From assembly GCA_016288055.1 (NCBI GenBank), contig JAEEXZ010000001.1:1-64000 (forward strand): 64,000 nucleotides of DNA, in the 5' to 3' direction. Below the pieces are notes generated by a model that was not told where the DNA came from, did no database searches, and saw only the letters and a list, made by a program, of their open reading frames with translations. This DNA comes from Bacteroidales bacterium (GTDB lineage: Bacteria > Bacteroidota > Bacteroidia > Bacteroidales > UBA932). Shown piece after piece: positions 8,317 to 43,297 of the stretch. The position numbers were made by a program, and so were the translations under genes. Position 1 is the first letter of the stretch. Each line of letters starts with the position of its first letter.

Positions 8317-9648
8317 ATGAAACGCGTACTGGTCATAGCGTATTACTGGCCGCCGTCCGGAGGATCGGGCGTGCAGCGCTGGGTGAAATTCTGCAAGTAT
8401 CTGCCTGCCGAGGGCTGGGAACCTGTGGTGTTTGCCCCGCTCAATGCCGATTATCCTTCCCTGGATCCTTCGTTCGAGAAGGAACTGCCGGAGAATCTGG
8501 AAGTGCTTCGGGGAAAGATATGGGAACCCTATGCCGCCTACCGGAAACTTACCGGTGCCAGGAGCACCCAGGTGACGGAAATATCCTCCGGGAAAAAGAC
8601 CTGGAAGCAACGGCTTTCCCTGTGGATCCGCGCCAATCTGTTTGTGCCGGACCCTCGCGTGGGCTGGGTGAAGCCCAGCGTGAAGACACTGCGCAAATAC
8701 CTGACGGAACATCCCGTGGACGCCATTGTGACCACCGGGCCGCCGCATTCTGTGCACCTGATCGGCCAGAAACTTCATAAAGCCACGGGCATTCCGTGGA
8801 TTCCGGATTTCCGCGATCCGTGGAGCCGGATGTACTACCTGAAGTATCTTCCCATGACGGCAGGGACCTGGGCCAAACTCCGCGCCCAGGAACAGGCGGT
8901 GCTGGACGACTGCAATACCGTCCTTGCCTGCACGCCGCTGGTCCAGGAGGAATTCCAGGCCCAGACGAAAACCCCCGTTGCCTGCATCACCAACGGTTTT
9001 GATGAAGAGGATTTCACTGGTCCGGCCCCCGAAGGGGACGGCCGCTTCAATATCACGCACACCGGCCTTTTCGCGGCCGATGGCAACCCGTTTACCCTCT
9101 GGAAGGTTCTGAAGGAACTCGCCGCCGAAGACCCCTGGTTCAAGGAGTCCCTCCGCCTGCGCCTTGTAGGAAAAGTGGATCGGGAGGTGCTGGACGCCAT
9201 GGCCGATGCCGGCCTGCAAGCCAACGTAGTGGCGCTCGGCCCGTGCGACCACGCCACCGCCGTTCGGGAACAACGCAGCGCGACGCTGCTGCTGCTGCCG
9301 CTCAGAAACGACGCGCAGTACAGACCCATCCTGCCCGGCAAGCTCTTCGAATACCTGGCGGCCCGCCGTCCGGTGCTTGGAATAGGCCAGGCCGATGGTG
9401 CCATGGCCCGCGTCCTGCACGATGCCCAGGCCGGTGTTACGGCCGAATGGGACGATGCCGCGGCCATGAAGGCATTCATCGCCGCCGCCTGGAAACAGTT
9501 CTGCGAGGGTTCCGTCCCGGCTACGGCCGGGGATATCGGCCCTTATACCCGCCGCGCGACAACCCATGCGCTTGCGGCACTGCTTGACTCTGTCATCCTG
9601 AGCGTGGACTCTGTCATCCTGAGCGAAGCGAAGGATCTCAAAGAATAA
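8317..9648 (+). CDS. Glycosyltransferase, family 4-like
   Basis: MKRVLVIAYYWPPSGGSGVQRWVKFCKYLP N-terminus, VTTGPPHSVHLIG, LPLRNDAQYRPILPGKLFEYLAARRPVL. Confidence 0.88.
   Translation: MKRVLVIAYYWPPSGGSGVQRWVKFCKYLPAEGWEPVVFAPLNADYPSLDPSFEKELPENLEVLRGKIWEPYAAYRKLTGARSTQVTEISSGKKTWKQRLSLWIRANLFVPDPRVGWVKPSVKTLRKYLTEHPVDAIVTTGPPHSVHLIGQKLHKATGIPWIPDFRDPWSRMYYLKYLPMTAGTWAKLRAQEQAVLDDCNTVLACTPLVQEEFQAQTKTPVACITNGFDEEDFTGPAPEGDGRFNITHTGLFAADGNPFTLWKVLKELAAEDPWFKESLRLRLVGKVDREVLDAMADAGLQANVVALGPCDHATAVREQRSATLLLLPLRNDAQYRPILPGKLFEYLAARRPVLGIGQADGAMARVLHDAQAGVTAEWDDAAAMKAFIAAAWKQFCEGSVPATAGDIGPYTRRATTHALAALLDSVILSVDSVILSEAKDLKE
9586..9637 (+). repeat. Dispersed-type repeat TGTCATCCTGAGCG..GAAGGATCT in the 3' end of the glycosyltransferase gene, with a 19-bp direct duplication
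   Basis: gactctgtcatcctgagcg at 9586-9604 and 9607-9625, then aagcgaaggatct. Confidence 0.85.
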
Positions 9649-12254
9649 TGAAAATGAAAGACATTTGGAAGAAAATAGCCCTTGTGGCCGGCGTCGTGGC
9701 ACTGTTCCTGGCGCTCAGCTATGGCTTTGTGCCGCAGGTGCTGGACGGAAAGATCGTGAACCAGAGCGATATCTCCGGCTACGTGGGCATGTCCCACGAA
9801 ATGAATGAGTGGAACAAGGCCCACCCCGACAACCCCACCTACTGGACGGATTCCATGTTCGGCGGCATGCCCACCACCACCATTTCCACCCAGAACAGCG
9901 GCGACTACACCCAGTGGATCTATGATACGCTCCTTACCGGGAAGCGTCCGGCGACGTATCTGTTCATCGCGCTGCTGGGTGCCTTCCTGCTGTTTCTGGC
10001 CATGGGCGTGAGCATTCCTGTCGCCGTCGGCGGCGCCATTGCCGTGGCATTCTGCAGTTACAACTTCCAGATTATCCAGGTGGGGCACAACACCAAGATG
10101 CAGGCCATCGCCTTCATGCCCTGGGTCCTGGCCGCACTGATCTATACGTACCGGAGCGCTACCGGCAGGGGGAAGGCCCTCTGCGGAGCATTTGCCCGGA
10201 CAGGGTCGCGAAGCGACGCTCCGCAGGGGGCCTTCTCCCTGCCGGGAACCCTGCTGGGAGCCGTTCTCTTCGGGCTGGCGCTGAGCATGCAGATTAAGGC
10301 CAATCATCAGCAGATTACTTACTACCTGGCCATCATGGTGCTGCTGTACGGCATCTCGGAGCTTATCCACGCCATCCGGACGAAGGAGTGGAAGCCGTTC
10401 CTGGTGGCATCGGCCCTCCTTCTGGTGATGGGCGGCGCCGGCATTGCGACCAATGTGAACAAGCTCCTTCCCCTGGCCAAATATACGCCCCACACCATGC
10501 GCGGCGGCTCCGAACTCTCCAAAGACGGCGCTTCCGCCAAGGGCCTGGACCTGGATTACGCAACGTCCTGGAGCTACGGTTGGGAGGAACTCCCCAACCT
10601 CATGATTCCGGACTTCAACGGCGGCGCATCATCGGGTGCCGTGAACCCCGACAAGAGCGAGACCATCAAACTCCTCAAGCGCGCCGGCCAGAAGAATCTA
10701 AGGGAAACCGCCAAAAGCCTGCCGCTCTACTGGGGCCCGCAGCCGTTCACGGCCGGTCCCATGTATATGGGCGCCATCACGATTTTCCTCTTCGTGCTGG
10801 GCCTCGGCCTTTATAAAGGGCGGGAGAAATGGTGGCTGGTGGCAGCTACCCTTATCGCCGTGCTCATGGCGGTGGGAAGCCATTTCATGGTGTTCACCAA
10901 ACTGTGCTACGACTACCTGCCCCTGTACAACAAGTTCCGCACGGTGTCCATGGCACTGGTGGTGCTGCAGGTGGCCCTGCCGCTGCTGGGCTTCGTAACC
11001 CTGGACCGCATTACCAAAGAAGAATACGACCGTAAGCGCTTCATGAAGGCCTTCTGGTGGGCTCTCGGCATCACCGGCGGCTTCAGCCTCATAGCCTGGC
11101 TGGCCCCCGGCCTCTTCGGCTCCTTCTCCGGAGCCTCCGACGCGCAGATGCAGGATGTGCTGGTAGATGCGCTGGTCAAAGACCGTATCGCCCTCTTCAA
11201 GGCCGATGCCGGTGTTTCCCTGCTGCTGATCCTGGCCTCGGCCGGCCTTCTTTTCTGGGCATACATGCCCAAGGGACGCAAGCAGCTGGCCGCCGTCGCC
11301 ATCTGCGTCCTGTCGCTGGTGAACCTCTTCGCCGTGGGAAAGCGCTATCTCAACGCCGACCATTTCACCACCCCGAAGGACTTCAACAAGCCCTTCGCCG
11401 AGCGCCCCGTGGACAAGATGATCAAGGCCGATGAAGACCCGCAGTACCGTGTCCTGGACCTCACTGTGAACGTGTTCAATTCATCTATCCCCAGCTATCA
11501 TCACAAGAGCGTGGGAGGTTATTCCCCTGCCAAGCTGCAGCGTTACCAGGATCTTATCGAGCATTACCTGTCGGCAGAAATCAACGCCTTGTACAAACAG
11601 CTGGGAGAGGCTGAAGATATCATGGATGCCGCAGACTGGATGGCTTCCGGAACGCCGGTCCTGAATGCCTTGAATACCCGTTACGTCATTCTGGACGGGA
11701 ACTATCCGCCGCTGGTGAATGAAGGCGCTTTCGGTGCCGCCTGGTTCGTGGACTCTGTCGTTGAGGCCGCAACCCCCGACGAGGAGATTGCCCTGCTGGG
11801 GAAGGTGGACCTCCGCCGTACGGCGGTGGTAGATCCTTCGCTGGCGCTCAGGATGACAGAAGGAGCGCTCAGGATGACAGAGGGGGAGCTCAGGGCTTGT
11901 CATTCTGAGGAGCAAAGCGACGAAGAATCTATCGGCCTTACGTCCTACGCCCCCAACGAACTGCATTACAAGTACAGCGCCGCCTGCGACCGGTTGGCCG
12001 TCTTCAGCGAAATTTACTACCCGGACGGCTGGCATGCCACCGTGGACGGGCAGCCCGTGGACCTTTTCCGCGCCGACTGGACCCTTCGCGCCGCGCTTCT
12101 GCCGGCCGGCAAGCACGAGGTCGTGATGACCTTCCTCCCGTCGAGCTACAGCATTGGCGCGACGGTGTCGGCCATCGCTTCCATCGGCCTGCTTCTGCTG
12201 CTTCTGCTGGCCGTCGGGAAAGCCTTTATCCGCAAATCATTAACAAGTAAATAG
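9648..12254 (+). CDS. YfhO family multi-pass membrane protein
   Basis: Long polytopic ORF with YfhO-type motifs (SDISGYVGMSHEMNEWNK, YWTDSMFGGMPTTTIS, YFNLxxx-type TM array, YPDGWHATVDGQPVDLFRADWTLRAALLPAGKHEVVMTF). Confidence 0.88.
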   Translation: MKMKDIWKKIALVAGVVALFLALSYGFVPQVLDGKIVNQSDISGYVGMSHEMNEWNKAHPDNPTYWTDSMFGGMPTTTISTQNSGDYTQWIYDTLLTGKRPATYLFIALLGAFLLFLAMGVSIPVAVGGAIAVAFCSYNFQIIQVGHNTKMQAIAFMPWVLAALIYTYRSATGRGKALCGAFARTGSRSDAPQGAFSLPGTLLGAVLFGLALSMQIKANHQQITYYLAIMVLLYGISELIHAIRTKEWKPFLVASALLLVMGGAGIATNVNKLLPLAKYTPHTMRGGSELSKDGASAKGLDLDYATSWSYGWEELPNLMIPDFNGGASSGAVNPDKSETIKLLKRAGQKNLRETAKSLPLYWGPQPFTAGPMYMGAITIFLFVLGLGLYKGREKWWLVAATLIAVLMAVGSHFMVFTKLCYDYLPLYNKFRTVSMALVVLQVALPLLGFVTLDRITKEEYDRKRFMKAFWWALGITGGFSLIAWLAPGLFGSFSGASDAQMQDVLVDALVKDRIALFKADAGVSLLLILASAGLLFWAYMPKGRKQLAAVAICVLSLVNLFAVGKRYLNADHFTTPKDFNKPFAERPVDKMIKADEDPQYRVLDLTVNVFNSSIPSYHHKSVGGYSPAKLQRYQDLIEHYLSAEINALYKQLGEAEDIMDAADWMASGTPVLNALNTRYVILDGNYPPLVNEGAFGAAWFVDSVVEAATPDEEIALLGKVDLRRTAVVDPSLALRMTEGALRMTEGELRACHSEEQSDEESIGLTSYAPNELHYKYSAACDRLAVFSEIYYPDGWHATVDGQPVDLFRADWTLRAALLPAGKHEVVMTFLPSSYSIGATVSAIASIGLLLLLLLAVGKAFIRKSLTSK
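10162..10245. repeat. 84-bp in-frame palindromic element inside the YfhO gene
   Basis: 28-nt arms 10162-10189 and 10218-10245 complementary with 2 mismatches; inner gtcgc-gaa-gcgac hairpin; length divisible by 3. Confidence 0.9.
11831..11930. repeat. In-frame repeat cluster: inverted plus direct copies of the TGTCATyCTGAG..GAyCT element inside the YfhO gene
   Basis: agatccttcgctggcgctcaggatgaca (reverse copy), second gcgctcaggatgacag, then tgtcattctgaggagcaaagcgacgaagaatct (forward copy). Confidence 0.88.
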
Positions 12255-12261
12255 CATCGCT

Positions 12262-13320
12262 TTGAACAACAACGAAATATTGGAGTGGCTGCGTGAAGTG
12301 CAGCACCCCGCGAAGGGCGACCAGAGTGTCGTGGCGCTGGGGATGGTGGATGAGATCAAGTGCGAAGAAGGCCGCATCCATGTGACGCTGGCTTTCCCCA
12401 AGCGGCCGGACCCCCTCAAGAACTACCTTGTGGGAGCCGTACAGGCCTGCCTGTACCGCAACGCCCCCGGCGGGACCGAGATTGAGGTGGATACCGTGGT
12501 AAAAGACCCCGCCAAGCCCAAGAAAGGCATCGAGTTTAATCTGGAACAGCTGCGGGAAGTGAGCCATATCATCGGTGTGGCTTCCGGCAAGGGCGGCGTG
12601 GGCAAGAGCACCGTCGCCGTGAACCTGGCTGTCGCGCTGGCCCGCCTGGGCTATCGCGTGGGAGTGGCCGATGCCGATGTCTATGGCCCCTCCATTCCCA
12701 CCATGACCGGCACCGAGGGTGTCACCATTGAAATGTACGGGGAAGACGAGAACGACAACCTCTTCGTCCCCGTAGAAAAATACGGCGTGAAGTGGCTTTC
12801 CGTGGGCCACGTATCCAATGCCGGGCAGGCGCTCATCTGGCGCGGCCCCATGGCCTCCACGGCGCTCAAGCAGATTATTCTGCAAACCCAGTGGGGCCCG
12901 CTGGATTTCCTGCTCATCGACATGCCTCCGGGAACCGGAGACATCCACATTTCCCTGATCGGTGACGTGCCCATGAGCGGCGCCGTCATCGTAACCACTC
13001 CCCAGAACGTGGCCCTGGCCGACGTCCTTCGCGGCGTGAACATGTTCCGGAACCCTCAGGTGAACAAGCCCATCTTCGGTCTCATCGAAAACATGTCCTG
13101 GTTCACCCCAGAAGCCCATCCGGAAGAGAAGTACTACCTCTTCGGAAAGGACGGCGGCACCAAGATGGCCAAGGATCTGGATATTCCCCTTCTGGGCCAG
13201 ATTCCACTGGTACAGGGCATCCGCGAAGGCGGAGACAGCGGCGAACCCGTCGCGCTGGGTTCCCGCCCGGACTCCCTGGCCTTCCTGGAACTCGCCAGAA
13301 AAATTGCAGAGTCTGTATAA
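12262..13320 (+). CDS. mrp: Mrp/NBP35 family ATP-binding Fe-S carrier protein
   Basis: IIGVASGKGGVGKSTVAVNLAVALA, DADVYGPSIP, DMPPGTGD; N-terminal DUF59-like domain; TTG start. Confidence 0.93.
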   Translation: MNNNEILEWLREVQHPAKGDQSVVALGMVDEIKCEEGRIHVTLAFPKRPDPLKNYLVGAVQACLYRNAPGGTEIEVDTVVKDPAKPKKGIEFNLEQLREVSHIIGVASGKGGVGKSTVAVNLAVALARLGYRVGVADADVYGPSIPTMTGTEGVTIEMYGEDENDNLFVPVEKYGVKWLSVGHVSNAGQALIWRGPMASTALKQIILQTQWGPLDFLLIDMPPGTGDIHISLIGDVPMSGAVIVTTPQNVALADVLRGVNMFRNPQVNKPIFGLIENMSWFTPEAHPEEKYYLFGKDGGTKMAKDLDIPLLGQIPLVQGIREGGDSGEPVALGSRPDSLAFLELARKIAESV

Positions 13321-13321
13321 A

Positions 13322-13350
13322 AAAAGGTCCCGAGTTCTTCGGGACCTTTT
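13322..13350. terminator. Bidirectional intrinsic terminator between mrp and the S46 peptidase gene
   Basis: aaaaggtcccga-gttct-tcgggacctttt hairpin with T tract between convergent genes. Confidence 0.85.
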
Positions 13351-13353
13351 CTT

Positions 13354-15444
13354 TTATTTGACGTAGGTGAGTTCTGCGATGATATTGTCGGCCTTGCCGT
13401 ACTTCTCGACCAGCCACAGCACGTAGCGGATATCTACGCAGATGCAGCGCTGAAGGGCCGGTTCGAACATGACGTCGGAGCTCATGCTCTCCCAGTTGCC
13501 GTCGAAGGCCAGGCCGATGAGATTGCCCTTGGCGTCCAGAACGGGAGAACCGGAGTTGCCGCCGGTGATGTCGTTGTTGGTGAGGAAGCAGGTGTGCAGG
13601 CTGCCGTCTTTGTCGGCCCAGCGGCCGTAGTCCTTGGCAACAAGGAGCTCCTTGATGCCGGCGGGCAGGATGAACTCGGGATCCTCGGGGTTTTCTTTCT
13701 CCAGCAGGCCCTGGGCCGTGGTGAAGTATTCGTACTTGAGGGCGTCCTTGGGGCTGTAGGGAAGCACGTGGCCGTAGGTGAGGCGCATGGTGGAGTTGGC
13801 GTCCGGATACATGGCCTGGCCCTTCTGCCACTCCATGAGGGCGGCGGCGAAGTTCTTGCGGGCCTTCTGGAAAGAGGTGGCCGGACCGCCGGCGTTGTAG
13901 TGCTTCATGATTTCGGCGAGAATGACCGAGAACAGTTTGGTGGCCGGATCGCTCTTGATTTCTTCGATGGAGCTGATGGTTTCCACCTTTTCAAGGGACG
14001 TGAATTTGGAACCGGCAAACAGCTCCTCCACGTAGGCGGGAATGTCCAGGGAGGCGAAGTCCGTTTCGAAACCGGAGAGGTAGTTCTCGGGCTTGGCGTT
14101 TTTGCGGTAGAATTCCAGCAGGGCAACGGCTTCCTTCTTGTCCAGGGCCTCCACATAGTCCTTGTATTCGCCCTGGATTGCGCTCTTGGCCTGAGCCAGG
14201 GCGGCTGCCGTATCTTTTCCTTCCTGAATGGCCTCGCCGACGAGTTCCACAAAGTCCGATGCAAGGCCTACGAGTTCAATGCGGTAGGGAGCCTCGGTAA
14301 GGAGGGTGAAGGCGTGGTTGGATTCGGCGTTCTTGCCTACGTAATCGGCAATCTCCGTGAAGGGGTCTCCGTACTTGGCCTTGCGCTGGGGATCGGCCTC
14401 GATCCAGGCCTTGAGGGCGGCTTCCTTCTGCTCCTCGCGGCCGATGATGTTGAGGTTCTTGAAGGCGAGCTCCTCACCCTGCCACTTCTTCCAGCCGTTG
14501 GCGCTGCCTGCATATTTGTCGGCGTACTTCAGCTGGACGGACGGGTCTGCGCACATGGCTTCCCACATCAGGTCCTGGCGTACGGTGCGGGCATCGATGC
14601 GGATGCGGTTGGTGGCGATCATCTCGTTCAGCTCGGCGGCCGTCTGGAAACGCTGGGTGCGGCCCGGGTAGCCCATGACCATGGCGTAGTCTCCTTCCTT
14701 CACGCCCTTGAGGGAAATCTTCAGGGATTTGGCGGGCTTGTAAGGAACGTTCTCTTCGCTGTATTCGGCGGGCATGTTGTCCTTGCCGGCATAAACGCGG
14801 AACATGGAGAAGTCGCAGGTATGGCGGGGCCACATCCAGTTGTCGGCCTCACCGCCGAACTTGCCCATGTCCTCCGGGGGCGTACCCACGAAGCGGACGT
14901 CGGTGTAGGTGCGGTAGATGATCAGGTAGTGGACATTGTCGTTATAGAAACCGGTGACGCGGGCGGTGCAGCCGGGATTGTTCTTCCGGGCTTCTTCCAT
15001 GATCTCCTGGGCCTTGGTCTTACCCAGGGCGCCGGCGGCCTCGATAACGCCGGTCACGTCTTCCATGGAGACCAGGAAGGTGACGGAAAGGCCCGGACAG
15101 GGGATTTCCTCGGCGAAATTCTTTGCCCAGAAACCGTCCATGAGGTAGTTGTGCTCGTCGGAGGACAGGGCCTGGATGCTGCTGTAGCCGCAGTGGTGGT
15201 TGGTGACCAGCAGACCCTGGTCGCTGATGATTTCACCGGTGCAGCCGCCGCCGAAGTGCACGATGGCGTCTTTCAGGGAAGTCTTGTTGATGGAGTAGAT
15301 TTCTTCCGGAGTGAGTTTGCATCCGGCAGCCTTCAGGTCTTTTCCGTTCAGCTGTTTCAGGAGGGGCAGGAGCCACATTCCTTCATCTGCCACGGCGGTC
15401 AGGGACACGGTGAGGGCAGTCAGTAGGGTAAGAACACGTTTCAT
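13354..15444 (-). CDS. S46 family dipeptidyl-peptidase (DPP7/DPP11 family)
   Basis: DEGMWLLPLL, LLVTNHHCGYSSIQ (His), GGNSGSPVLDAKGNLIGLAFDGNWE (Ser); signal peptide MKRVLTLLTALTVSLTAVA. Confidence 0.95.
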   Translation of the reverse strand: MKRVLTLLTALTVSLTAVADEGMWLLPLLKQLNGKDLKAAGCKLTPEEIYSINKTSLKDAIVHFGGGCTGEIISDQGLLVTNHHCGYSSIQALSSDEHNYLMDGFWAKNFAEEIPCPGLSVTFLVSMEDVTGVIEAAGALGKTKAQEIMEEARKNNPGCTARVTGFYNDNVHYLIIYRTYTDVRFVGTPPEDMGKFGGEADNWMWPRHTCDFSMFRVYAGKDNMPAEYSEENVPYKPAKSLKISLKGVKEGDYAMVMGYPGRTQRFQTAAELNEMIATNRIRIDARTVRQDLMWEAMCADPSVQLKYADKYAGSANGWKKWQGEELAFKNLNIIGREEQKEAALKAWIEADPQRKAKYGDPFTEIADYVGKNAESNHAFTLLTEAPYRIELVGLASDFVELVGEAIQEGKDTAAALAQAKSAIQGEYKDYVEALDKKEAVALLEFYRKNAKPENYLSGFETDFASLDIPAYVEELFAGSKFTSLEKVETISSIEEIKSDPATKLFSVILAEIMKHYNAGGPATSFQKARKNFAAALMEWQKGQAMYPDANSTMRLTYGHVLPYSPKDALKYEYFTTAQGLLEKENPEDPEFILPAGIKELLVAKDYGRWADKDGSLHTCFLTNNDITGGNSGSPVLDAKGNLIGLAFDGNWESMSSDVMFEPALQRCICVDIRYVLWLVEKYGKADNIIAELTYVK

Positions 15445-15471
15445 ATACGATAAGAATTTGCACAAAGATAG

Positions 15472-16062
15472 TTAAAAGAGTGTAGGTTCCAACTCTTTTA
15501 CGTGAAAACTCATCCGGTGCCAGGGCGTATATCCGAAGCGGCGGATGGCCTCGATATGTTCGGGGGTGGGGTATCCCATGTTGCGCTCCCAGCCATACTG
15601 GGGATACTCCAGGGCCAGTTTTCTCATAAAGTCGTCCCGGTAGGTTTTTGCCAGGACGGAAGCCGCGGCGATGGAGGCGAAGGTGGCGTCCCCGTGCACC
15701 ACGGTGCGGTAGTGCTGCGCGGAATACGGGCCGAAGGGGCGGAACTTGTTGCCGTCGATAAGGAGGAACTCCGGGGCGGGGTTTAGCCGGAGAACGGCGC
15801 GCTGCATCCCCGTGACGGACGCCCAGAGGATGTTGAGCTGGTCGATCTCCCGGGCCGATACCGCCTCTACCGCCCAGGCGACGGCCTCCCGTTCGATGAT
15901 GGGCCGAAGCTCCTCGCGGGCCTTTTCGCTCATTTGTTTGGAGTCGTTCAGGAGGGGGTGGTAGAAATCCGCCGGCAAAATGACGGCGGCAGCATAAACG
16001 GGGCCGGCCAGGGGACCCCTGCCGGCCTCGTCACAACCGGCCTCGAGCCGGTCTTTTTCCAT
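15472..16062 (-). CDS. rnhB: Ribonuclease HII
   Basis: [46 protein letters not shown] can extend to 16122. Confidence 0.95.
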
Positions 16063-16134
16063 ATATGCCTGAAGATTCGGTTTCAATTGGTTTGCGGGAT
16101 TTGTCCACGCAAATTTAAACAAAAAAGCCTAGAA

Positions 16135-17220: not shown

Positions 17221-17224
17221 ATTA

Positions 17225-20463: not shown

Positions 20464-20464
20464 A

Positions 20465-21226: not shown

Positions 21227-21261
21227 ACACCCCTAAGACGCAGCTTTGGGGAAAAGTACCA

Positions 21262-21765: not shown

Positions 21766-21870
21766 AACGGGGTTGCAAAGTTAGATATTTTTGCCGGAAT
21801 CTTGCTTTTGAATGAAAAGTCGCTATATTTGTATTCCGCATAAACCGCACGACTAATAATTAATATACAC

Positions 21871-24009: not shown

Positions 24010-24014
24010 TCCGC

Positions 24015-24167
24015 ATGAAACCGTACCATTCCCCGTCCGCCGAAGTAGTGGAATACTACCCTTCAGACGGCGTGCTTAACAATGCCAGCAATGAGGGTTA
24101 TAGCGTAGATCCGTTTAATCCTGGCTTCTCCTCTCCGGCTTTAGACGACTTTTCATCCATTCTTTAA
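24015..24167 (+). CDS. Small hypothetical peptide (50 aa) upstream of the M64 peptidase
   Basis: ATG-to-TAA frame: MKPYHSPSAEVVEYYPSDGVLNNASNEGYSVDPFNPGFSSPALDDFSSIL*; below the ORF-track length cutoff; same strand, 13 bp before the next ATG (24181). Confidence 0.5.
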   Translation: MKPYHSPSAEVVEYYPSDGVLNNASNEGYSVDPFNPGFSSPALDDFSSIL

Positions 24168-24180
24168 TTCTGTGAACGCC

Positions 24181-26329: not shown

Positions 26330-26349
26330 TACTGTGTTTGCAGAGAGAA

Positions 26350-27144: not shown

Positions 27145-27146
27145 GA

Positions 27147-29075: not shown

Positions 29076-29078
29076 AGG

Positions 29079-30296: not shown

Positions 30297-30369
30297 ATGT
30301 GCTTTGTAAAATCGTACAAAGGTAATAAAAAATGCCTACTTTTGCATCACAACTAATGACTATTTCTGC

Positions 30370-32427: not shown

Positions 32428-32535
32428 TCATTTTCGGTAGCTTTTCTGTCAAGTCCAAAATTTTTAAAAAAAGTTTTGGAAAAAGGAATAATTGTTTTAC
32501 CTTTGCGGTGTACTATTAAACTAATACACACAGAC

Positions 32536-34905: not shown

Positions 34906-34916
34906 GGATTCCTACA

Positions 34917-35810
34917 TCAGCGGAAAACGCTGCGGAAGGAGTTGTTTTCCGTCAGGATGCGTATGAAGGCGTCTGTCGCGCGTTTGCGATAGGCGCCTTT
35001 CATGAAGTGGTAGCAGCCGTACATCCGGCCTTCCGGATGGTGGATGGGAACAGCTCTCAGTTCGGGAATGCCGTGCGCCACTTCTCCGGAAAGGATGGTG
35101 AAGATGGAACCCGACTTGACCAGGTCCAGGATGGCGTGGATACTGTTGAGTTCCAGGCGGATATCCAGTTCTACATTTTTGGCGAACAGGACGGACTCGA
35201 GGGTGTCACGCGCCTGCAGGCCTTTGATGGGAAGCGCCAGCGGATAGCGGCTGAGCGTCTGGACCTCGACGTGCTGCCGGCACTCTTTCATGGCGTCCCG
35301 CCGGCCAATCAGGCAGAGGGAGTTCTCAAACAGCAGGCAGGAGTCGATGCGGTCGTCGTCCATGGGGGACTTATAGGTGAGGGCAACGTCCAGCTCCCGG
35401 TCCAGCAGCATCTGTTTGAGCGTGCTAGTGGAGGTATTGAAAACGTTGAGTTTGACATGGGGGTACTGCCGGTGGAAATCCAGGATGGTCTGCATGAGAA
35501 GCGGGCCGAACGAATAGGTAGCTCCGACCGAGAGCGTACCTGTCTGCAGGTCTTTGACGTCCATGATTTTGTCGGCACAGACCTGCGCTTCCTCCAGGAT
35601 CCTGACGGCGTGCGGATAGAATTCCCGGCCGTAATCGCTCAGGGAAACGTGACGGGTGTCGCGGGTGAGCAGCTCCACCCCCAGCTCCTCTTCCAGCTTC
35701 CCGATTTGCTGGGAAATGGTGCTCTGGGTGATGTAGAGGGACTTGGATGCCGCCGAGAAGCTCTTCAGGCGGCTCACTTCTACAAAATATCGGAGTTGGC
35801 GTAATTCCAT
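34917..35810 (-). CDS. LysR family transcriptional regulator
   Basis: MELRQLRYFVEVSRLKSFSAASKSLYITQSTISQQIGKLEEELGVELLTR winged-HTH. Confidence 0.95.
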   Translation of the reverse strand: MELRQLRYFVEVSRLKSFSAASKSLYITQSTISQQIGKLEEELGVELLTRDTRHVSLSDYGREFYPHAVRILEEAQVCADKIMDVKDLQTGTLSVGATYSFGPLLMQTILDFHRQYPHVKLNVFNTSTSTLKQMLLDRELDVALTYKSPMDDDRIDSCLLFENSLCLIGRRDAMKECRQHVEVQTLSRYPLALPIKGLQARDTLESVLFAKNVELDIRLELNSIHAILDLVKSGSIFTILSGEVAHGIPELRAVPIHHPEGRMYGCYHFMKGAYRKRATDAFIRILTENNSFRSVFR

Positions 35811-35846
35811 GGTAATAAGTGCTTTTCGTGCAAATATACGTCGATT

Positions 35847-35879
35847 TATCGAAATTATCTAAAAAATCTATCGAAATTA
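35847..35879 (+). promoter_or_regulatory. Two direct copies of TATCGAAATTA spaced 22 bp, divergent LysR / M49-like intergenic region
   Basis: 35847-35857 and 35869-35879 identical 11-mers. Confidence 0.5.
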
Positions 35880-35916
35880 ACCTTATCCATCTATAAAAAA
35901 CCTGCGTTCTTCTTCC

Positions 35917-35924
35917 TACTTTTG
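35917..35924 (+). promoter_or_regulatory. -7 box TACTTTTG, 6 nt from the M49-like start codon
   Basis: TAnnTTTG consensus. Confidence 0.55.
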
Positions 35925-35930
35925 CGCGCA

Positions 35931-37538
35931 ATGCAAAAGAATTTTCTCAAATCATTTCTTATTCTGCTGGTTGCCACCGCCTGCAGCAACGCCCCTAAGT
36001 CGCCGTTGAACAGAGAGGTGGCCAATTATGCCGTCGTCACGGTCAAGGCACCCGACCTGAGCGGTATTACCGACAATGGAAAAGAGGTGCTCAATCTCTA
36101 TCGCTTCGCCGCCGACGAGGTGGACGCTATCTACTGGGAACAGTATTTCGGAGACAAGCATGCCCTGCTGGACAGCATCTCCGACCCGGTGGAGAAAACC
36201 TATGCCGAGATTAACTACGGTCCCTGGGACCGTATGGACGGGAAATCCTTCGTGGAAGGTTATGCCGACCGTCTCCCGGGCGTGGGCTTCTACCCGGCCG
36301 ACATGACCCTGGAGGAATTCGAGGCCTGGGACAATCCGGACAAGATGAGTCCCTACACCCTGGTCCGCCGCGCCGCGGACGGCTCCCTGCAGACGGTCTG
36401 GTACCACGACGCTTACAAGGAGCACATCGGCAAGATTTCCAGCTATCTGCTGGCAGCGGCCGACATCACCATCAAGCCCAGCGTCCGGAAGTATCTGCTG
36501 GCCAAGATCCAGGCCCTGCAGAGCGACAATTTCTACGAAAGCGGCATCGCCTGGCTGGAGATGGACGACAGCAAGATGGACCTGGTGATCGGCCCCAACG
36601 AGGCGGCTGACGACCAGCTTCTGGGTGTCAAGCGTTCCTACGAGGCCTTCGTGCTTCTGAAGAAGGAGTCGCACACGGAAGAACTCATGCAGTATGTCTC
36701 CCGTATCGGCGAGTTCCAGCAGGACCTTCCCGGGGACCCTGCCTACAAGACTTTCCAGCCCGGTTCCGGTTCCAACATCTTTGCCTGCGACGCGCTTTAC
36801 TATGCGGGCAAGGCCAACGCCGGCATCAAAGTGATTGCGCTGAACCTGCCCTTCGACCCCGCCGTGCAGCATGACAAGGGCACGCGTACCATCCTGCTGG
36901 ACAATGTCATCTACGCCAAGTTCAACAGCATCGTGGCTCCCACGGGCGAAATCCTTCTCTCTGCCGACGACCGCGAGCATCTTTCTTCCGATGCTTTCTA
37001 CTGGAACGTGGCCATGCGTGAGGTGGCCCACGGTCTGGGAGTCAAGGAGACGGTGAACGGGAAAGGCAGTGTGGAAGAGGCCCTGGGCAGCACCGCCCAG
37101 ACTTTCGAAGAGGTGAAAGCCAACGCGGCCGGCGTGCTGCTGGTCTGCAAGCTGCAGGACCATTTCGACATCCACCATCTGTTCACCAGACAGGATGCCC
37201 TCACCACCTTCTTCGTGTCCCTGCTCCGTTCCGAGCGCTTCGGCGAAGGGTCTGCCCTGGGACGCGCCAATGTTATCATCTATAATTATCTCCGTGAAGC
37301 CGGCGCCTTCCAGCGTGACGCTTCCGGACATTACACCATCGATCCTGCCAGGATGGAAAGCGGCCTCGCCGCCCTCACCGCCCTCGTGCTGGAGACCCAG
37401 GCAACGGGCAACCGTTCCTTTGCCGCCGACTTCGAGGCCCGCTATTCCAAGCGCTGCGAAGACTACCAGGCCGACATCCTGAACCTCGGGCTGGAGAAAA
37501 TCCCCGTGGATATCCGGTTTGACTTCCAAACCCGGTAG
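35931..37538 (+). CDS. M49 (DPP III)-like lipoprotein with substituted zinc motif
   Basis: REVAHGLGVKETVNGKGSVEEALGS...FEEVKANAAG aligns with the HEISHGLG...EEAKAD type M49 signature; MQKNFLKSFLILLVATACSN signal. Confidence 0.75.
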   Translation: MQKNFLKSFLILLVATACSNAPKSPLNREVANYAVVTVKAPDLSGITDNGKEVLNLYRFAADEVDAIYWEQYFGDKHALLDSISDPVEKTYAEINYGPWDRMDGKSFVEGYADRLPGVGFYPADMTLEEFEAWDNPDKMSPYTLVRRAADGSLQTVWYHDAYKEHIGKISSYLLAAADITIKPSVRKYLLAKIQALQSDNFYESGIAWLEMDDSKMDLVIGPNEAADDQLLGVKRSYEAFVLLKKESHTEELMQYVSRIGEFQQDLPGDPAYKTFQPGSGSNIFACDALYYAGKANAGIKVIALNLPFDPAVQHDKGTRTILLDNVIYAKFNSIVAPTGEILLSADDREHLSSDAFYWNVAMREVAHGLGVKETVNGKGSVEEALGSTAQTFEEVKANAAGVLLVCKLQDHFDIHHLFTRQDALTTFFVSLLRSERFGEGSALGRANVIIYNYLREAGAFQRDASGHYTIDPARMESGLAALTALVLETQATGNRSFAADFEARYSKRCEDYQADILNLGLEKIPVDIRFDFQTR

Positions 37539-37567
37539 CAAGTATAATCAACGACAGAAACGATACT

Positions 37568-39073
37568 ATGTTTAAGATCTTTGTAGGTTTCAACCTCGTC
37601 GAGCAGATGCACAAGCTGCGTCACGACAAGCGCTTCAACCCCAACCTGTTCAGAAAGAAGACTGTCGGTTTTCTTTTTGTCGCCATCATCTTCCTGCTTC
37701 TGTGGTTCCTGCCCACCGAGAGCTTCGGTATTGACGGGCTCACCCAGGTGCAGCAGCGTATCATTGCCATCTTTGCCTATGCTACCCTTATGTGGGTGAT
37801 GGAACTGGTTCCGGCCTGGGCTACGTCGGTGTCTATCATCCTGCTGCTTCTGCTGTTCGCGTCGGATTCCGGTGTCAAGTGGCTCTGCAACGCCGCCGAG
37901 GTGGGACAGCTTCTCAGCTACAAGCAGGTGATGGCCAGCTTCGCCGACCCGGTCGTGATGCTGTTCATCGGTGGTTTTATCCTTGCAATTGCCACTACCA
38001 AGACCGGACTGGACGTGCATCTGGCCCGCGTGCTGCTCACGCCCTTCGGCAAGAAGAGTGAGAATATCCTGCTGGGCTTCATGCTGGTGACGGCCCTGTT
38101 CTCCATGTTCATCAGCAACACGGCCACAACGGCCATGATGCTCACCTTCCTTACGCCTGTGTTCAAGCAGCTTCCCGAGGCCGGGAAGGGCCGTATCGGC
38201 ATGGCGCTGAGCATTCCCGTAGCCGCCAACCTGGGCGGTATGGGCACGCCGATCGGCACGCCGCCCAATACCATCGCCCTTAAGTATCTGAACGACCCTG
38301 AGGGCCTGAACCTGGGCATCGGCTTCGGCCAGTGGATGCTGTTCATGGTTCCGCTGGTGATTCTCCTGATCCTGGTGGCCTGGTTCATCCTCAAGAAGCT
38401 GTTCCCCTTCACCCAGAAGACCATCGAGCTCAAGATTGACGGCGGAATGAAGAGCGGCGGCCAGACGACGCTGGTGATCGTCACCATGGTCGTCACCATC
38501 CTGCTGTGGATGATGGATACCCTCACGGGCATCAATACCTATACCGTGGCCCTGATTCCGTTCGCTGTCTTCGCGATGGCGGGCATTATCTCCAAGTACG
38601 ACCTGGAAGAAATCAACTGGTCCGTGATCTGGATGGTGGCCGGCGGTTTCGCTCTTGGTTACGCGATGAACGCTTCCGGACTGGCCGCTCTGATTATCAG
38701 GGCCATTCCCTTCGGCAACTTCTCCCCGATCCTTATCCTGGTGCTCTCGGGCCTGCTCTGCTACGGCCTCTCCAACCTGATTTCCCACTCGGCTACTGCA
38801 GCCCTGCTCATGCCCATCCTGGTGGTGGTCTGCACGGCCATGGGAGACAAGCTTGCCTCTATCGGCGGCGCCACCACGGTCCTGATCGGCGTGGCTATCG
38901 CCTCCTCCAGCGCCATGATCCTCCCCATTTCCACCCCGCCGAATGCCCTTGCCTACGCCACCAACCTGGTCCAGCAGAAGGACATGGCTAAAGTGGGAAT
39001 TATCATGGGAACCCTTAGCATTCTGCTTGGCTACGCGGCCCTGATGACCGCCCGCGCCCTCCAGATTGTCTAA
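37568..39073 (+). CDS. SLC13/DASS family (CitT-like) sodium-coupled anion transporter
   Basis: Polytopic; SNTATTAMMLTFLTPV, IPVAANLGGMGTPIGTPPN, LISHSATAALLMPI, ISTPPNALAYATNLVQQKDMAKVG. Confidence 0.93.
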   Translation: MFKIFVGFNLVEQMHKLRHDKRFNPNLFRKKTVGFLFVAIIFLLLWFLPTESFGIDGLTQVQQRIIAIFAYATLMWVMELVPAWATSVSIILLLLLFASDSGVKWLCNAAEVGQLLSYKQVMASFADPVVMLFIGGFILAIATTKTGLDVHLARVLLTPFGKKSENILLGFMLVTALFSMFISNTATTAMMLTFLTPVFKQLPEAGKGRIGMALSIPVAANLGGMGTPIGTPPNTIALKYLNDPEGLNLGIGFGQWMLFMVPLVILLILVAWFILKKLFPFTQKTIELKIDGGMKSGGQTTLVIVTMVVTILLWMMDTLTGINTYTVALIPFAVFAMAGIISKYDLEEINWSVIWMVAGGFALGYAMNASGLAALIIRAIPFGNFSPILILVLSGLLCYGLSNLISHSATAALLMPILVVVCTAMGDKLASIGGATTVLIGVAIASSSAMILPISTPPNALAYATNLVQQKDMAKVGIIMGTLSILLGYAALMTARALQIV

Positions 39074-39093
39074 TTACAAAAACCAACAAGTGC

Positions 39094-39131
39094 AAAAAAA
39101 AGACGGCCGCAAAAAATGGTCGTCTTTTTTT
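39094..39131. terminator. Bidirectional intrinsic terminator between SLC13 gene and tRNA-Leu
   Basis: aaaaaaagacggcc...ggtcgtcttttttt hairpin with A/T tracts on both sides. Confidence 0.8.
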
Positions 39132-39132
39132 G

Positions 39133-39216
39133 TGCCCAGAGCGGGAATCGAACCCGCACGATATTGCTATCACAGGATTTTGAGTCCAGCGCGTCTACCA
39201 ATTCCGCCATCCGGGC
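39133..39216 (-). tRNA. tRNA-Leu (anticodon CAA)
   Basis: Reverse complement GCCCGGATGGCGGAATTGGTAGACGCGCTGGACTCAAAATCC...GTGCGGGTTCGATTCCCGCTCTGGGCA; matching acceptor stem, long variable arm, TTCGATTC loop; CCA not encoded. Confidence 0.95.
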
Positions 39217-39281
39217 AGGGGCGTCTTTGAAGACGGACTGCAAATTTAAGCGAAAAAGCGGAAACTGCAAAAATAAACCAC

Positions 39282-39289
39282 TATCTTTG
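39282..39289 (+). promoter_or_regulatory. -7 box TATCTTTG, 6 nt from the aroB start codon
   Basis: TAnnTTTG consensus. Confidence 0.6.
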
Positions 39290-39295
39290 CATTCT

Positions 39296-40270
39296 ATGCT
39301 GAAGGAACTCTCCCATATCACGGACATTGCGGCCATTCTGTCGCAGGAATCCGAATTGTACGTGGTTTACGACAAGAATGTCGCATGGGTGGCGGACCAA
39401 CTGCCTGCCGGATGGCCTCGCCTGGAACTGGAGACCTCCGAGGAGGCTAAAACGCTGGAAACGGTAGCCCGTATTGAGCGCTGGCTCATGGCGTGCGGCG
39501 CCACGCGGGGCAGCCTGGTCCTGGCCGTGGGCGGCGGCATCACCACCGACATGGTGGGCTTCGCCGCCGGCATCTACAAGCGCGGCGTCCGTTATGCGAA
39601 CTTTCCCACCACCCTCCTGGCGCAGGTGGACGCAGCTCTCGGCGGCAAAACCGGCGTGAACCTGGACGGGTACAAGAACATGCTCGGCGCCTTCCGCATG
39701 CCGGAGTACACCTTCCTTTCGGCCGATGTCCTCCGCACCCTTCCGTCGCGCGCCCTCCTGTCGGGCGTGGCGGAAATGCTCAAGACCTTCCTCCTCTCTG
39801 ACGGAGAGGCCTACGAAAAGGCGCTCCGGAGTGGCCCCACGCAGGAGATGATCCGCCGCGCGGCCGTCGTCAAGGAGGACATCGTGGCGCGGGATCCCTA
39901 TGAGCGGGGCGAGCGTGCCAAACTCAACCTGGGCCATACCTTCGGCCATGCCATCGAGCACGAGGCCCGTATGCGGGCCGATGATATCACTCACGGGGAG
40001 GCCGTTGCCATCGGCATTATCCTTTCGGCACAGGCGGGAGAGTCTATCGGCCTTTCTGAAAAGGGGCTCGCGCAGCGGCTTGCGCGGGATTTCGCACAGG
40101 TGGGACTTCCCACGCAGTGCCCTTATCCCCTGCAGTCCCTGCAGGAAGCGATGGCCCGGGACAAGAAGGCCCTCGCCGGCGGCCTCGTGCGCTTCGTGAT
40201 TCCCGTACGCCCCGGAGAGGTCGTATTCCATGAAATGAACCCCTATGATCTGCACTTCGATACAAAATAA
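39296..40270 (+). CDS. aroB: 3-dehydroquinate synthase
   Basis: VLAVGGGITTDMVGFAAGIYKRGVRYANFPTTLLAQVDAALGGKTGVNLDGYKNMLGAF, LNLGHTFGHAIEHE, HGEAVAIG. Confidence 0.96.
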   Translation: MLKELSHITDIAAILSQESELYVVYDKNVAWVADQLPAGWPRLELETSEEAKTLETVARIERWLMACGATRGSLVLAVGGGITTDMVGFAAGIYKRGVRYANFPTTLLAQVDAALGGKTGVNLDGYKNMLGAFRMPEYTFLSADVLRTLPSRALLSGVAEMLKTFLLSDGEAYEKALRSGPTQEMIRRAAVVKEDIVARDPYERGERAKLNLGHTFGHAIEHEARMRADDITHGEAVAIGIILSAQAGESIGLSEKGLAQRLARDFAQVGLPTQCPYPLQSLQEAMARDKKALAGGLVRFVIPVRPGEVVFHEMNPYDLHFDTK

Positions 40271-42227
40271 AGAGCTCGCCGAAATCCAGGAGCTCCTGCA
40301 AACACTTGAGATGGCGGAAATCCGCCTGGACCGCTGTGCCCTGGAAGACGAGGACATCGATACGCTGTTCAGTGAGTCGGACGTGCCGCTGGTGGCAACC
40401 TGCCGGCTGAGCGAAGAACCCGCGGCTCCCCAGATTCTGGAGAGGGCCATCCAGGCGGGCGCCAAGTACGTGGACCTGGAAATGGAAGCCCCCGCAGCGG
40501 TGGGCCGTCGTATCCGCGAAGCCTGCAGCGAGTACGGAACCGTACTCATCCGTTCGTATCACAACTTCGAAGAGACGCCTTCCCGCGAGGTGCTGCTGTC
40601 CCTGCTGGACCGTGCCCGCAGCTTCGGCGGGGAAGTGGTCAAGATTGTCACGACCGCCCATTCCCAGGCCGATTGTGACACGGTGCTCAGTCTCTATGAT
40701 GCCGTGGAGCCCGGAACGCTCGTGGCGTTCTGCATGGGAGAGGAAGGACGCCAGTCCCGGCTGGAAGCCCTGAAACTGGGGGCACCTTATACTTACGCAT
40801 GTGTAACCCCCGGGGATGCTACCGCATCCGGTCAGTGGACCACGGAAGAAATGCGTGCCGCCGTTTACGGGGATTTCCGCTTCGTGGCATCCCCGCAGCT
40901 GCCCATGCCTTCTTCCAAAAGCTTCGCCCAGCGCGCCATTGTGGCCGCCTCCCTCGCCTTCGGGACGTCGCATCTTCAGGGATACTCCCCTTGTGGGGAT
41001 AACGAGAGCGCAATTGCGGCCTGCAGGGCCCTGGGAGCCACAATTTCGGTAGAAGGTAACACAATTGTTATACAAGGAACGGGCGCTTCGCCCGCATGCC
41101 TGAAACTGGATGAAATCCATACGGGTGAATCCGGTTTTCTCACCCGTTTTCTCATCCCTCTCGTGGCGGTCATTTCCCCCGACCGGGTACGTGTCAGTGG
41201 AGAAAAAACCCTGCTAGAGCGCCCTCTGTCCGATGCTCACGACATCATGGCCGCTTACGGAGTGCGCCTCTATCCGGAGGGTAACAAAAATGTTAACGAG
41301 GAGAGAAAGGCCGATTGCTACCTCCCTTTGAAGGTCGCCGGCCCGCTCATCCCCGGAAGGGCCGATATTTCCGGCAAGGGAGGCTCGCAACTTATCTCCG
41401 GACTGCTCGCGGCCCTGCCGCTTGCGGAGGGAAAATCGACCGTCTATGTCCACGACCCGCGCAGCATCCCGTACCTGTTCATCACCGTCGATGTGCTCAA
41501 GAAGTTCGGTATCCGGATGAGCTCCGAGATGGAAGGGGATGACGAATTCCTGGAAACCCAGGACTGGAACCTGTGCACCGGACTCAACTTCCATATCAAG
41601 GGCGGACAGCGATATCAGGCGGCGGACTTCGCCATCGAGGCCGACTGGTCGTCGGCCGCACCTTTCCTGACGGCGGGCGCCATCTTCGGCGATGTAGAGG
41701 TCACGGGCCTCGATACCACCAGCCTGCAGGCCGATATCTCCATCCTGGACATCCTCATGCAGGCCGGCGCCAGCATGTCCCAGCTGGATGAACCCACTGG
41801 CAGCATCCACATCAAGCGCGCCCCGCTGAGTCCTTTTGAAGCAGACCTCAACAACTGTCCGGACCTCTTTCCCGTGGTGGCGGTCCTGGCGGCATTCTGC
41901 CCCGGGGAAAGCCGCATCCGCGGCGTACAGCGGCTGCGCCACAAGGAGACGGACCGTGCATCGGCCATCTGCGGGATGCTGGAGAAGATGGGTGTCCCGG
42001 TCTCGGTGGACGACGACGAAATGACCATCACGGGAATGGGCCTTACCCAGAGGCTGGCTACCGGAGCGCTCCTGAAGGGTGGCTCTTACAGCTCGCACGC
42101 CGACCATCGCATGGTCATGGCCCTGAAAGTGGCCTCCCTGGGAGCCTCGTCTCCCATTGTGATTGACGACGAAGCCTGTGTTGCCAAGTCGTTCCCGCAC
42201 TTCAACGAATTATTTGAAAGACTATGA
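40245..42227 (+). CDS. Fusion: type I 3-dehydroquinate dehydratase + EPSP synthase
   Basis: aroD-like part: AEIRLDRC, VDLEME, RSYHNFEETP, VVKIVTTAHS; aroA-like part: SPQLPMPSSKSFAQRAIVAASLA, GNTIVIQGTG, GESGFLTRFL, RLRHKETDRASAI, DHRMVMALKVAS. Confidence 0.93.
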   Translation: MICTSIQNKELAEIQELLQTLEMAEIRLDRCALEDEDIDTLFSESDVPLVATCRLSEEPAAPQILERAIQAGAKYVDLEMEAPAAVGRRIREACSEYGTVLIRSYHNFEETPSREVLLSLLDRARSFGGEVVKIVTTAHSQADCDTVLSLYDAVEPGTLVAFCMGEEGRQSRLEALKLGAPYTYACVTPGDATASGQWTTEEMRAAVYGDFRFVASPQLPMPSSKSFAQRAIVAASLAFGTSHLQGYSPCGDNESAIAACRALGATISVEGNTIVIQGTGASPACLKLDEIHTGESGFLTRFLIPLVAVISPDRVRVSGEKTLLERPLSDAHDIMAAYGVRLYPEGNKNVNEERKADCYLPLKVAGPLIPGRADISGKGGSQLISGLLAALPLAEGKSTVYVHDPRSIPYLFITVDVLKKFGIRMSSEMEGDDEFLETQDWNLCTGLNFHIKGGQRYQAADFAIEADWSSAAPFLTAGAIFGDVEVTGLDTTSLQADISILDILMQAGASMSQLDEPTGSIHIKRAPLSPFEADLNNCPDLFPVVAVLAAFCPGESRIRGVQRLRHKETDRASAICGMLEKMGVPVSVDDDEMTITGMGLTQRLATGALLKGGSYSSHADHRMVMALKVASLGASSPIVIDDEACVAKSFPHFNELFERL

Positions 42228-43297
42228 ATACATTTGGAAACAGATTCAGAATCAGCATTTTCGGCGAGTCTCACGGCCCGCGTATCGGCGTTACCGTTGA
42301 CGGCGTCCTGCCGGGCGTTCCGCTGAGCGAAGAGGATTTCGCCACGGACCTGGCCCGTCGCAAGGCCGGCGCCCTGGGTACTACCCCCCGCGTGGAGGAC
42401 GACTTCCCTCAGATTGTTTCCGGTGTTTATGACGGTCATACGACAGGCGCGCCGCTTACCATCCTGTTCCGCAATGAAAACACCCGCAGCGAGGACTACG
42501 AGGGCTTCCGCGAGCATCCCCGCCCGGGTCATGCGGACTTCACCGCCAATCTCAAGTTCGGCGGGTTCAACGATCCCCGCGGCGGCGGCCACTTCAGCGG
42601 CCGCATCACGCTGGGTGTCGTGGCGGCCGGCGTCATCGCCAAGAAGATGCTCTATTTCGCCAAGTTCGGAGCTCGTCTGGTAGAGGTGGGCGGTCTGGCC
42701 GATGCCTCTGCCTGGCCCGATGCGCTGAAGGCCGCCGAGGCCGAAGGTGACTCCCTGGGCGGCGTGGTGGAATGCACCGTAGAGGGGCTTCCCATCGGCC
42801 TGGGCGAACCTTTTTGGGACAGCGTCGAATCCCTGGTTTCCCATGCCATCTTCGCCATTCCCGGCGTGCGCGGCATCGAATTCGGCGACGGCTTCGCCGC
42901 CTCTCGCATGAAAGGCTCCGAGCACAACGACCCCTTCCCGGAGCACAAGTGCTGCGGCGGGCACCACGAGGAAGGTGAGGAGCACCAGTGCTGCCACGGC
43001 GGTGAGCACGAAGAGGGACACCAATGTAATTGTCATTCTGAGCAAAGCGAAGAATCTCACGAGCACCACTGCTGCGGCCGTCACAAGCACCCGCAGCCTC
43101 CTGTTACCAATCATGCCGGCGGCGTGAACGGCGGCATCACCAATGGCAACCCGCTGGTCTTCCGCGTGGCCTTCAAGCCCACGGCCAGCATCGCCAAAGC
43201 CGGCATTCCCGGCCGTCACGACGTGTGCTTCGCCCTTCGCACCCCCGTCATCGTAGAGGCCATGGCCGCCATCGTCCTCGCAGACCTGGCATTATAA
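42224..43297 (+). CDS. aroC: Chorismate synthase with internal Cys/His-rich insertion
   Basis: FRISIFGESHGPRIGVTVDGVLPGVPL, RPGHADFTANLKFGGFNDPRGGGHFSGRITLGVVAAG, NHAGGVNGGITNGNPLVFRVAFKPTASI. Confidence 0.95.
   Translation: MNTFGNRFRISIFGESHGPRIGVTVDGVLPGVPLSEEDFATDLARRKAGALGTTPRVEDDFPQIVSGVYDGHTTGAPLTILFRNENTRSEDYEGFREHPRPGHADFTANLKFGGFNDPRGGGHFSGRITLGVVAAGVIAKKMLYFAKFGARLVEVGGLADASAWPDALKAAEAEGDSLGGVVECTVEGLPIGLGEPFWDSVESLVSHAIFAIPGVRGIEFGDGFAASRMKGSEHNDPFPEHKCCGGHHEEGEEHQCCHGGEHEEGHQCNCHSEQSEESHEHHCCGRHKHPQPPVTNHAGGVNGGITNGNPLVFRVAFKPTASIAKAGIPGRHDVCFALRTPVIVEAMAAIVLADLAL
43031..43057 (+). repeat. In-frame copy of tgtcattctgagcaaagcgaagaatct inside aroC
   Basis: Same element family as 9586-9637 and 11831-11930; encodes CHSEQSEES. 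Confidence 0.88.

Follow-up and report, generated by a model that had tools for sequence, protein, structure and literature searches.

Two families of dispersed hairpin-forming repeats read in frame within conserved genes of a Bacteroidales genus

Repeats in three conserved genes of the window

The window is the whole 64,000-nt stretch analysed here. It belongs to a metagenome-assembled Bacteroidales genome (2.05 Mb, 90 contigs, 87.5% complete, 5.7% contamination; G000 below). Three of its genes carry short repeats, and Pfam searches upheld the identities proposed for them in a first-pass annotation: a glycosyltransferase, the membrane protein YfhO, and chorismate synthase (AroC). That annotation had also claimed that one TGTCAT element is read in frame in all three genes and that a separate 84-bp palindrome lies in frame in YfhO. 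All copies were present as described, and the palindrome was confirmed at 10162–10245. The point to be amended is that the palindrome forms a family apart from the TGTCAT repeat. We refer to the TGTCAT repeat as element 1 and to the palindrome as element 2. The features are as follows.

8317–9648, + strand: glycosyltransferase ORF (Pfam PF13439/PF13692), C-terminus encoded by element 1
9591–9611, + strand: element 1 half unit recognised by sequence, 21 nt (left arm plus spacer), in tandem with a full copy
9612–9638, + strand: full element 1 copy, TGTCATCCTGAGCGAAGCGAAGGATCT, in-frame reading VILSEAKDL
9648–12254, + strand: YfhO membrane-protein ORF (Pfam PF09586, orthologue alignment), with element 2 and a cluster of element 1
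10162–10245, + strand: element 2, 84-bp coding palindrome, translated GRGKALCGAFARTGSRSDAPQGAFSLPG
10162–10189, + strand: left arm of element 2, sequence unlike other copies
10191–10216, + strand: conserved core of element 2, TTTGCCCGGACAGGGTCGCGAAGCGA, with two small internal hairpins
10218–10245, + strand: right arm of element 2, complement of the left arm
11831–11858, − strand: full element 1 copy with a GCCA loop, antisense in YfhO, reading DPSLALRMTE
11859–11879, − strand: element 1 half unit, 21 nt, antisense
11898–11930, + strand: long form of element 1, TGTCATTCTGAGGAGCAAAGCGACGAAGAATCT, head-to-head with 11831–11858, reading CHSEEQSDEES
42224–43297, + strand: AroC ORF (Pfam PF01264, E 4.5e-97, alignment), with a His/Cys-rich loop bearing the insert
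43031–43057, + strand: full element 1 copy with an AAA loop, in AroC, reading CHSEQSEES
43345–43401, + strand: intergenic palindrome downstream of aroC, with similar sequence after element 1 at many loci
43428–43453, − strand: canonical CGTC-tagged REP, CGTCATGCCCGG-CCCCGA-CCGGGCATC, intergenic

Exact copies of TGTCATYCTGAG were found at 9591 and 9612 (both +) in the glycosyltransferase gene, at 11847 and 11868 (both −) and 11898 (+) in yfhO, and at 43031 (+) in aroC. The translated segments of the three genes were ...LLDSVILSVDSVILSEAKDLKE, ...DPSLALRMTEGALRMTEGELRACHSEEQSDEESIG..., and ...NCHSEQSEESHEH..., respectively. When a 12-mer was searched in the window alone with two mismatches, 12 matches were obtained against 8.3 expected, which is not above chance. 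The 84-bp palindrome consists of two 28-nt arms around 28 nt and is in frame in YfhO. Alignments indicated that glycosyltransferase orthologues in congeners stop short of the DSVILSVDSVILSEAKDL tail. Order-level relatives carried neither of the YfhO segments, indicating that both were inserted rather than being part of the conserved protein.

The AroC loop (window 42930–43100; loci L082 and L084) is rich in His, Cys, and Glu (KCCGGHHEEGEEHQCCHGG...) in G000, G019, and G003, and most congeners lack it. It looks metal-binding. The palindrome downstream of aroC represents a third palindrome family (GGCCGAAGGAAATTTGGTTTTTCGGGCCCCGTCCCGAAAAATAAATTTCCTTCGGCC and relatives), which was found repeatedly after element 1, giving composite intergenic arrays (window 43345–43401, L003, L016, L018, L029, and L043). 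Two further repeats lie within ORF regions of the window: a 51-nt tandem repeat in two copies (4296–4397) and a 216-nt direct repeat, 79% identical (57539–58219).

Element 1: placement, hairpin, and distribution

Element 1 is TGTCATTCTGAGCGNAGCGAAGAATCT, and its copies align unambiguously as (T/C)TGTCATTCTGAGCGNAGCGAAGAATCTA. A loose pattern recovered 59 copies from G000 versus 0 for a reversed control pattern. After long-form variants were added, 63 distinct copies were obtained. Genes were called in the stretches around the copies with a codon-usage caller trained on the window (93% coding), and conserved host genes of both elements were identified by Pfam. Thirty copies were intergenic, 13 overlapped a gene end, and 20 lay inside ORFs. 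At 93% coding, ~59 would be expected inside, so element 1 is depleted from ORFs (p ~7e-35). The copies inside ORFs preserve the reading frame and are located in variable loops or at the termini of conserved proteins. The genome-wide count, with its 20 in-frame intragenic copies, agrees with the first-pass annotation, and the position of these copies supports its suggestion that the lineage tolerates protein-coding palindromes in loops and termini.

The hosts of element 1 include TilS, a 4Fe-4S ferredoxin protein, MetG, an aminotransferase–DapF fusion, GH3, a HAD phosphatase, UvrA, an amidohydrolase, RibF, an M20 peptidase, and CitC–CitG (three copies). A tetrapyrrole-methylase-family (RsmI-like) protein and ClpP carry it at their ends, and the three window genes complete the set. 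In the CitC–CitG fusion (L037:5258–7024), the three copies are all in frame and lie in both orientations. Judging from the sequence, four of the six frames of element 1 are open. All 10 counted sense copies internal to conserved genes used the CHSERSEES frame (p = 0.002), and the VILSEAKNL frame was confined to protein termini. Element 1 also supplies gene boundaries. ATGACA on its antisense strand is the start of dxr and two other genes, its AATCTATG stands before several gene starts, and the stop codons of some genes come from its internal TGA or from a TAG at the junction.

Directly upstream of 14 of the 63 full copies is a 21-nt half unit, made of the left arm and spacer and equal to seven codons. 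Examples are L016 and window 9591–9611, and a similar half-plus-full arrangement was seen in an unrelated GTCAT palindrome in uvrA of G471. Dimers of element 1 were head-to-head in seven cases, head-to-tail in five, and tail-to-tail in none. All head-to-tail pairs join two families.

The d(GCGNAGC) sequence forms a mini-hairpin of exceptional stability, and tandem GA pairs also have a stabilising effect. Element 1 contains both in the order TGTC, ATTCT, tandem GA, GC, GNA loop, GC, tandem GA, AGAAT, CT. Both strands have the same predicted fold, in which five pairs are followed by a GA/GA internal loop, two further pairs, and a loop of three bases. The third stem pair alternates among T-A, C-G, and G-C. 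It was Watson–Crick in 355 of 357 copies in total (55/55 in G000, 138/139 in viral contigs, and 162/163 in other genomes), whereas independence would give 41, 67, and 115 such copies, respectively. Nearly all variation of element 1 is at the middle base of the GNA loop. A GNA loop, with N being any of the four bases, was present in 125 of the 139 viral-contig copies. Variants had whole pairs added (GCC-GAA-GGC) or a second GA module (GAGGAGC..GCGACGA). The nearest-neighbour folding energy of element 1 was no better than that of shuffles, so covariation, mostly at one stem position, is the sole ground for the structure.

The host genus is very species-rich, and at least 200 of its genomes were searched. 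Copy number within the genus ranged from 0 to 60, and an exact 25-mer of element 1 was present in 37 of 395 genomes of the phylum. By record names, an exact 30-mer including the ATG occurred in Bacteroidales, Acidobacteria, Brocadia, Sedimentisphaerales (Planctomycetes), Dehalococcoidia, other Chloroflexi, Omnitrophota, Uhrbacteria, Nitrospina, Deltaproteobacteria, and Gastranaerophilales. Single bins held 56 copies (a 1.2-Mb Dehalococcoidia bin), 49 (Omnitrophota), 41 (Acidobacteria), 39 (Sedimentisphaerales), and 26 (a Deltaproteobacterium). With so many copies in each, contamination is unlikely for many of the bins. A Lachnospiraceae bin with two copies on one contig may be contaminated. 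Element 1 extends beyond the lineage of G000.

Possible carriers were also searched. Element 1 matched 5 of 72,556 plasmids, all cyanobacterial, and 1 of 50,697 phages. Contigs labelled viral contained it in 99 stretches, and none contained element 2. Copies so alike in many phyla pose a testable question, namely which process places a 27-nt hairpin in such unrelated genomes when no transposase for it is known. G000 itself has six Y1/RAYT-like ORFs of 312–361 aa (L341–L346, on C18, C25, C28, C80, C11, and C22), and the flanks of several contain hairpins or inverted repeats that are unrelated in sequence.

Element 2 and the palindromes at shared protein loops

All five copies of element 2 in G000 were in ORFs (yfhO, fmt, wbqC-like, cysS, and atpG). 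Relatives carried it in fmt (same site), uvrA, metG, tyrA, dnaX, and the gene of a DUF6259 protein. The 26-nt core of the YfhO palindrome was common to 19 other distinct copies in related genomes, and the arms, 20–28 bp long, differed at every locus. The core is free of stops in all six frames, which allows element 2 to live inside essential genes. An intergenic variant in G006 has a TAG within the core. Among the copies in ORFs, 13 of 14 used one and the same frame, and those in conserved genes kept the frame without a stop over 76–92 nt. The CysS and AtpG inserts coincided with gaps in alignments to the structures of solved homologues.

The YfhO copy had a predicted RNA fold of −74.8 kcal/mol (z −9.2, 86-nt stretch), and predicted folds of element 2 copies ranged from −54.9 to −74.8 kcal/mol. 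A search of Rfam returned no family at gathering score for element 2 and one weak sRNA match elsewhere. Element 2 matched only miRNA-precursor models, below their gathering scores, and these matches were ascribed to the chance resemblance of a long hairpin.

The arms of element 2 change together. In 14 aligned copies with the standard core, 98.9% of pair cells were paired, and pairing dropped to ~50% in slid controls. Nineteen of 20 arm pairs had changed on both sides. Double-change cells numbered 81 versus 20.5 in shuffles, and the covariation was 0.671 versus 0.204. Orthologous arms differed mostly by pair-keeping double changes, including double transversions, clustered in uvrA. The uvrA core was antisense in G019 and G557 and sense in G558, and the arms were homologous. 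In G550, the uvrA core had decayed and the arms were still complementary; in G571, a short palindromic stub was all that was present.

Template switching between inverted repeats homogenises their arms and inverts the spacer (PMC8604942). Selection on an mRNA hairpin could be another source of the arm covariation. We prefer template switching, because arm homogenisation and spacer inversion are its stated outcomes (PMC8604942). An origin of each pair of arms by inverted duplication of the target at its own locus was rejected, as the arms share a diverged consensus, which favours common descent with arm homogenisation.

Congeners carried different inserts in the same protein loops. The YfhO loop, which is missing from order-level relatives, held other palindrome peptides (VIPGLTGDL, VIPSEASVS, and HVIPSEAWES), in keeping with the first-pass suggestion that such repeats diversify loops. 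At one MetG site, G000 carried TGTCATTCTGAGCGCAGCGAAGAATCT, G005 TGTCATACCGAGCGAAGCGAGTGTATCT, G003 a head-to-head dimer of CGTC-tagged repeats, and G019 element 2. One UvrA loop contained element 1 in G000, other GTCAT palindromes in G446, G571, and G471, and apparent degraded relatives in G564, G550, and G614. Other GTCAT palindromes occupied the element 1 sites of MetG, UvrA, M20, YfhO, and further proteins of congeners. Insertion at these loops was independent or turned over. The loops are either repeated targets or the place of one insertion rewritten again and again, a question that the Rickettsia japonica authors left open for RPE-4/6/7 (PMC3767692). Not every site can be put down to simple insertion, as the net gain in uvrA was only three codons. 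The insertion sites were hypervariable, and clean strain-level empty sites were not obtained.

Interpretation and comparison with known systems

In the reading that we think likely, both families of dispersed hairpin-forming DNA act like selfish insertions, with selection as the filter. Element 1 would be a TGTC-tagged relative of CGTC REPs, usually tolerated only in intergenic DNA, at the ends of genes, or as an in-frame insert in flexible loops, with the hydrophilic CHSERSEES frame dominating inside genes. Element 2 would be the longer of the two, a coding palindrome built around a conserved core of 26 nt, and would live inside essential genes. Its arms would drift yet stay complementary, mainly through replication template switching between them, by which the core would be inverted too. 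Both elements are presumably translated into protein. Two points count against this reading: neither element was seen to move, and no dedicated transposase was found, in line with the published lack of one for CGTC REPs (PMC3733652).

A functional, regulatory structure in mRNA or single-stranded DNA, with element 1 forming leader hairpins ahead of start codons and element 2 an mRNA stem-loop with a conserved apical core, and with pairing kept by selection, would fit several observations: element 1 frequently lies directly against a start codon, either as AATCTATG or, in the opposite orientation, as ATGACA, and element 2 has strongly covarying arms, a conserved core, and strong predicted folds. 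This is unlikely, though worth weighing, since an orientation-specific RNA signal would forbid the core inversion seen between uvrA orthologues. Moreover, the host genes share no common pathway, the G550 arms pair despite a decayed core, and Rfam gave no family at gathering score. It seems improbable that the host exploits the repeats to diversify loops and termini, their presence being favoured by selection. Different palindrome peptides do recur in the same loops of essential proteins across the genus, and the hydrophilic CHSERSEES frame is favoured, but element 1 is strongly depleted from ORFs overall, and the inserts occupy variable loops that most relatives lack, contain no functional site, and look like tolerated spacers.

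Mobilisation in trans by the RAYT/Y1 transposases of the genome would explain the REP-like size, tag, and head-to-head dimers of element 1, and G000 has six Y1_Tnp-like genes. We nevertheless consider it unlikely. Element 1 lacks the GTAG tag of RAYT-mobilised REPs and does not flank RAYT genes at the Y1_Tnp loci checked, which came from G000, its relatives, and element-rich genomes. The RAYT-like loci of G000 are flanked by unrelated hairpins instead, a single locus among all those checked (in an Omnitrophota genome) contained element 1, and the element-rich genomes G622, G637, G283, and G320 gave no Y1_Tnp match. A stem of ~28 bp inside an essential gene would be expected to impede translation or to recruit RNase III, which counts in favour of bypass, splicing, or other removal, so that a segment such as the GAFARTGSRSDA or CHSERSEES peptide would be absent from the mature protein. 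Removal would require neither frame keeping nor freedom from stops, yet element 2 copies in conserved genes show both over 76–92 nt, with a frame bias of 13/14, and we regard it as very improbable. Assembly or binning artefact, an objection already raised in the first-pass annotation, might be suspected from the fragmentation, incompleteness, and contamination of the G000 assembly. It can practically be dismissed, because many other, independent genomes from the genus show the same elements and sites, and bins of other phyla hold 30–60 copies each.

More tentatively than the preferred reading, element 2 may be a new class of intragenic selfish palindrome whose hairpin is kept without its sequence by template switching, and element 1 a hairpin of near-fixed sequence that spreads across phyla. 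If true, element 2 keeps a hairpin, not a sequence, in essential genes of one bacterial genus. A literature search by DNA string or peptide, with incomplete coverage, returned no prior description of either element. Protein-coding palindromes have so far been regarded as largely a peculiarity of Rickettsia; here they occur in a large genus of gut Bacteroidota. The hosts include genes for tRNA synthetases, ATP synthase, UvrA, and DnaX, and the many relatives make gain, turnover, and decay traceable site by site. In its co-evolving arms and flipped core, element 2 would preserve a natural trace of template switching during the replication of coding DNA.

The CGTC-tagged REP superfamily includes Rickettsia RPE-4 and RPE-6 and Neisseria dRS3, and has no dedicated transposase (Di Nocera 2013, PMC3733652). 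The likeness to Rickettsia RPEs suggested in the first-pass annotation therefore proved closer than proposed, as RPE-4 and RPE-6 are CGTC-tagged (PMC3733652) and all 63 copies of element 1 bear this tag in its TGTC form. Like CGTC REPs, element 1 has A-T pairs at stem positions one and two (TGTC-AT...AT-CT), forms mainly head-to-head and no tail-to-tail dimers, and is mostly intergenic with an in-frame intragenic minority (20/63), uvrA included, in several phyla. Its stem of 5 bp, two tandem G.A, and 2 bp has nine positions, seven of them canonical, compared with 8–9 bp in CGTC REPs. Its loop is mostly a 3-nt GNA, in a few copies 4 nt, against 4–5 nt with exceptions allowed (PMC3733652), and its tail is CTA in most copies, against mostly CCA. 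Unlike CGTC REPs, it has tandem G.A mismatches and 21-nt half units upstream, and its exact 30-mers are common to many more phyla. Because loop length and tail depart from those of CGTC REPs despite the agreement in tag, first stem pairs, dimers, and location, element 1 is placed outside families 1–4, as a probable relative or new variant. The second G000 repeat, CGTCATGCCCGG-CCCCGA-CCGGGCATC, carries CGTC in 19 of 21 cases, with stems of AT plus 4–6 bp and loops of ~5–6 nt, and fits the superfamily closely.

Compared by description, element 2 resembles RPE-1 to RPE-3, the Rickettsia protein-coding palindromic elements of Ogata 2000 and 2002 (cited in PMC10969869 and PMC3767692), in being a palindrome in frame inside unrelated housekeeping genes. 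As with the Rickettsia elements, orthologues have inserts at the same locus, and RPE-4/6/7 sites hold different groups in different species (PMC10969869, PMC3767692). Element 2 differs in its Bacteroidota host, unrelated to Rickettsia, in its shorter length (74–92 bp), and in its conserved core with arms that change together, whereas the Rickettsia elements are reported to lose repeat identity over time (PMC6649704). It shares homogenised arms and inverted spacers with the template switching described for inverted repeats of yeast genes (PMC8604942), but its spacer is a dispersed conserved core. The coding palindromes of Nematomorpha mitochondria are likewise near-perfect inverted repeats in functional genes for which template switching has been suggested, but their arms encode conserved residues and no shared core was described (PMC6649704), whereas element 2 is a dispersed insert in variable loops. 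By analogy, element 2 would work like a Rickettsia-type coding palindrome.
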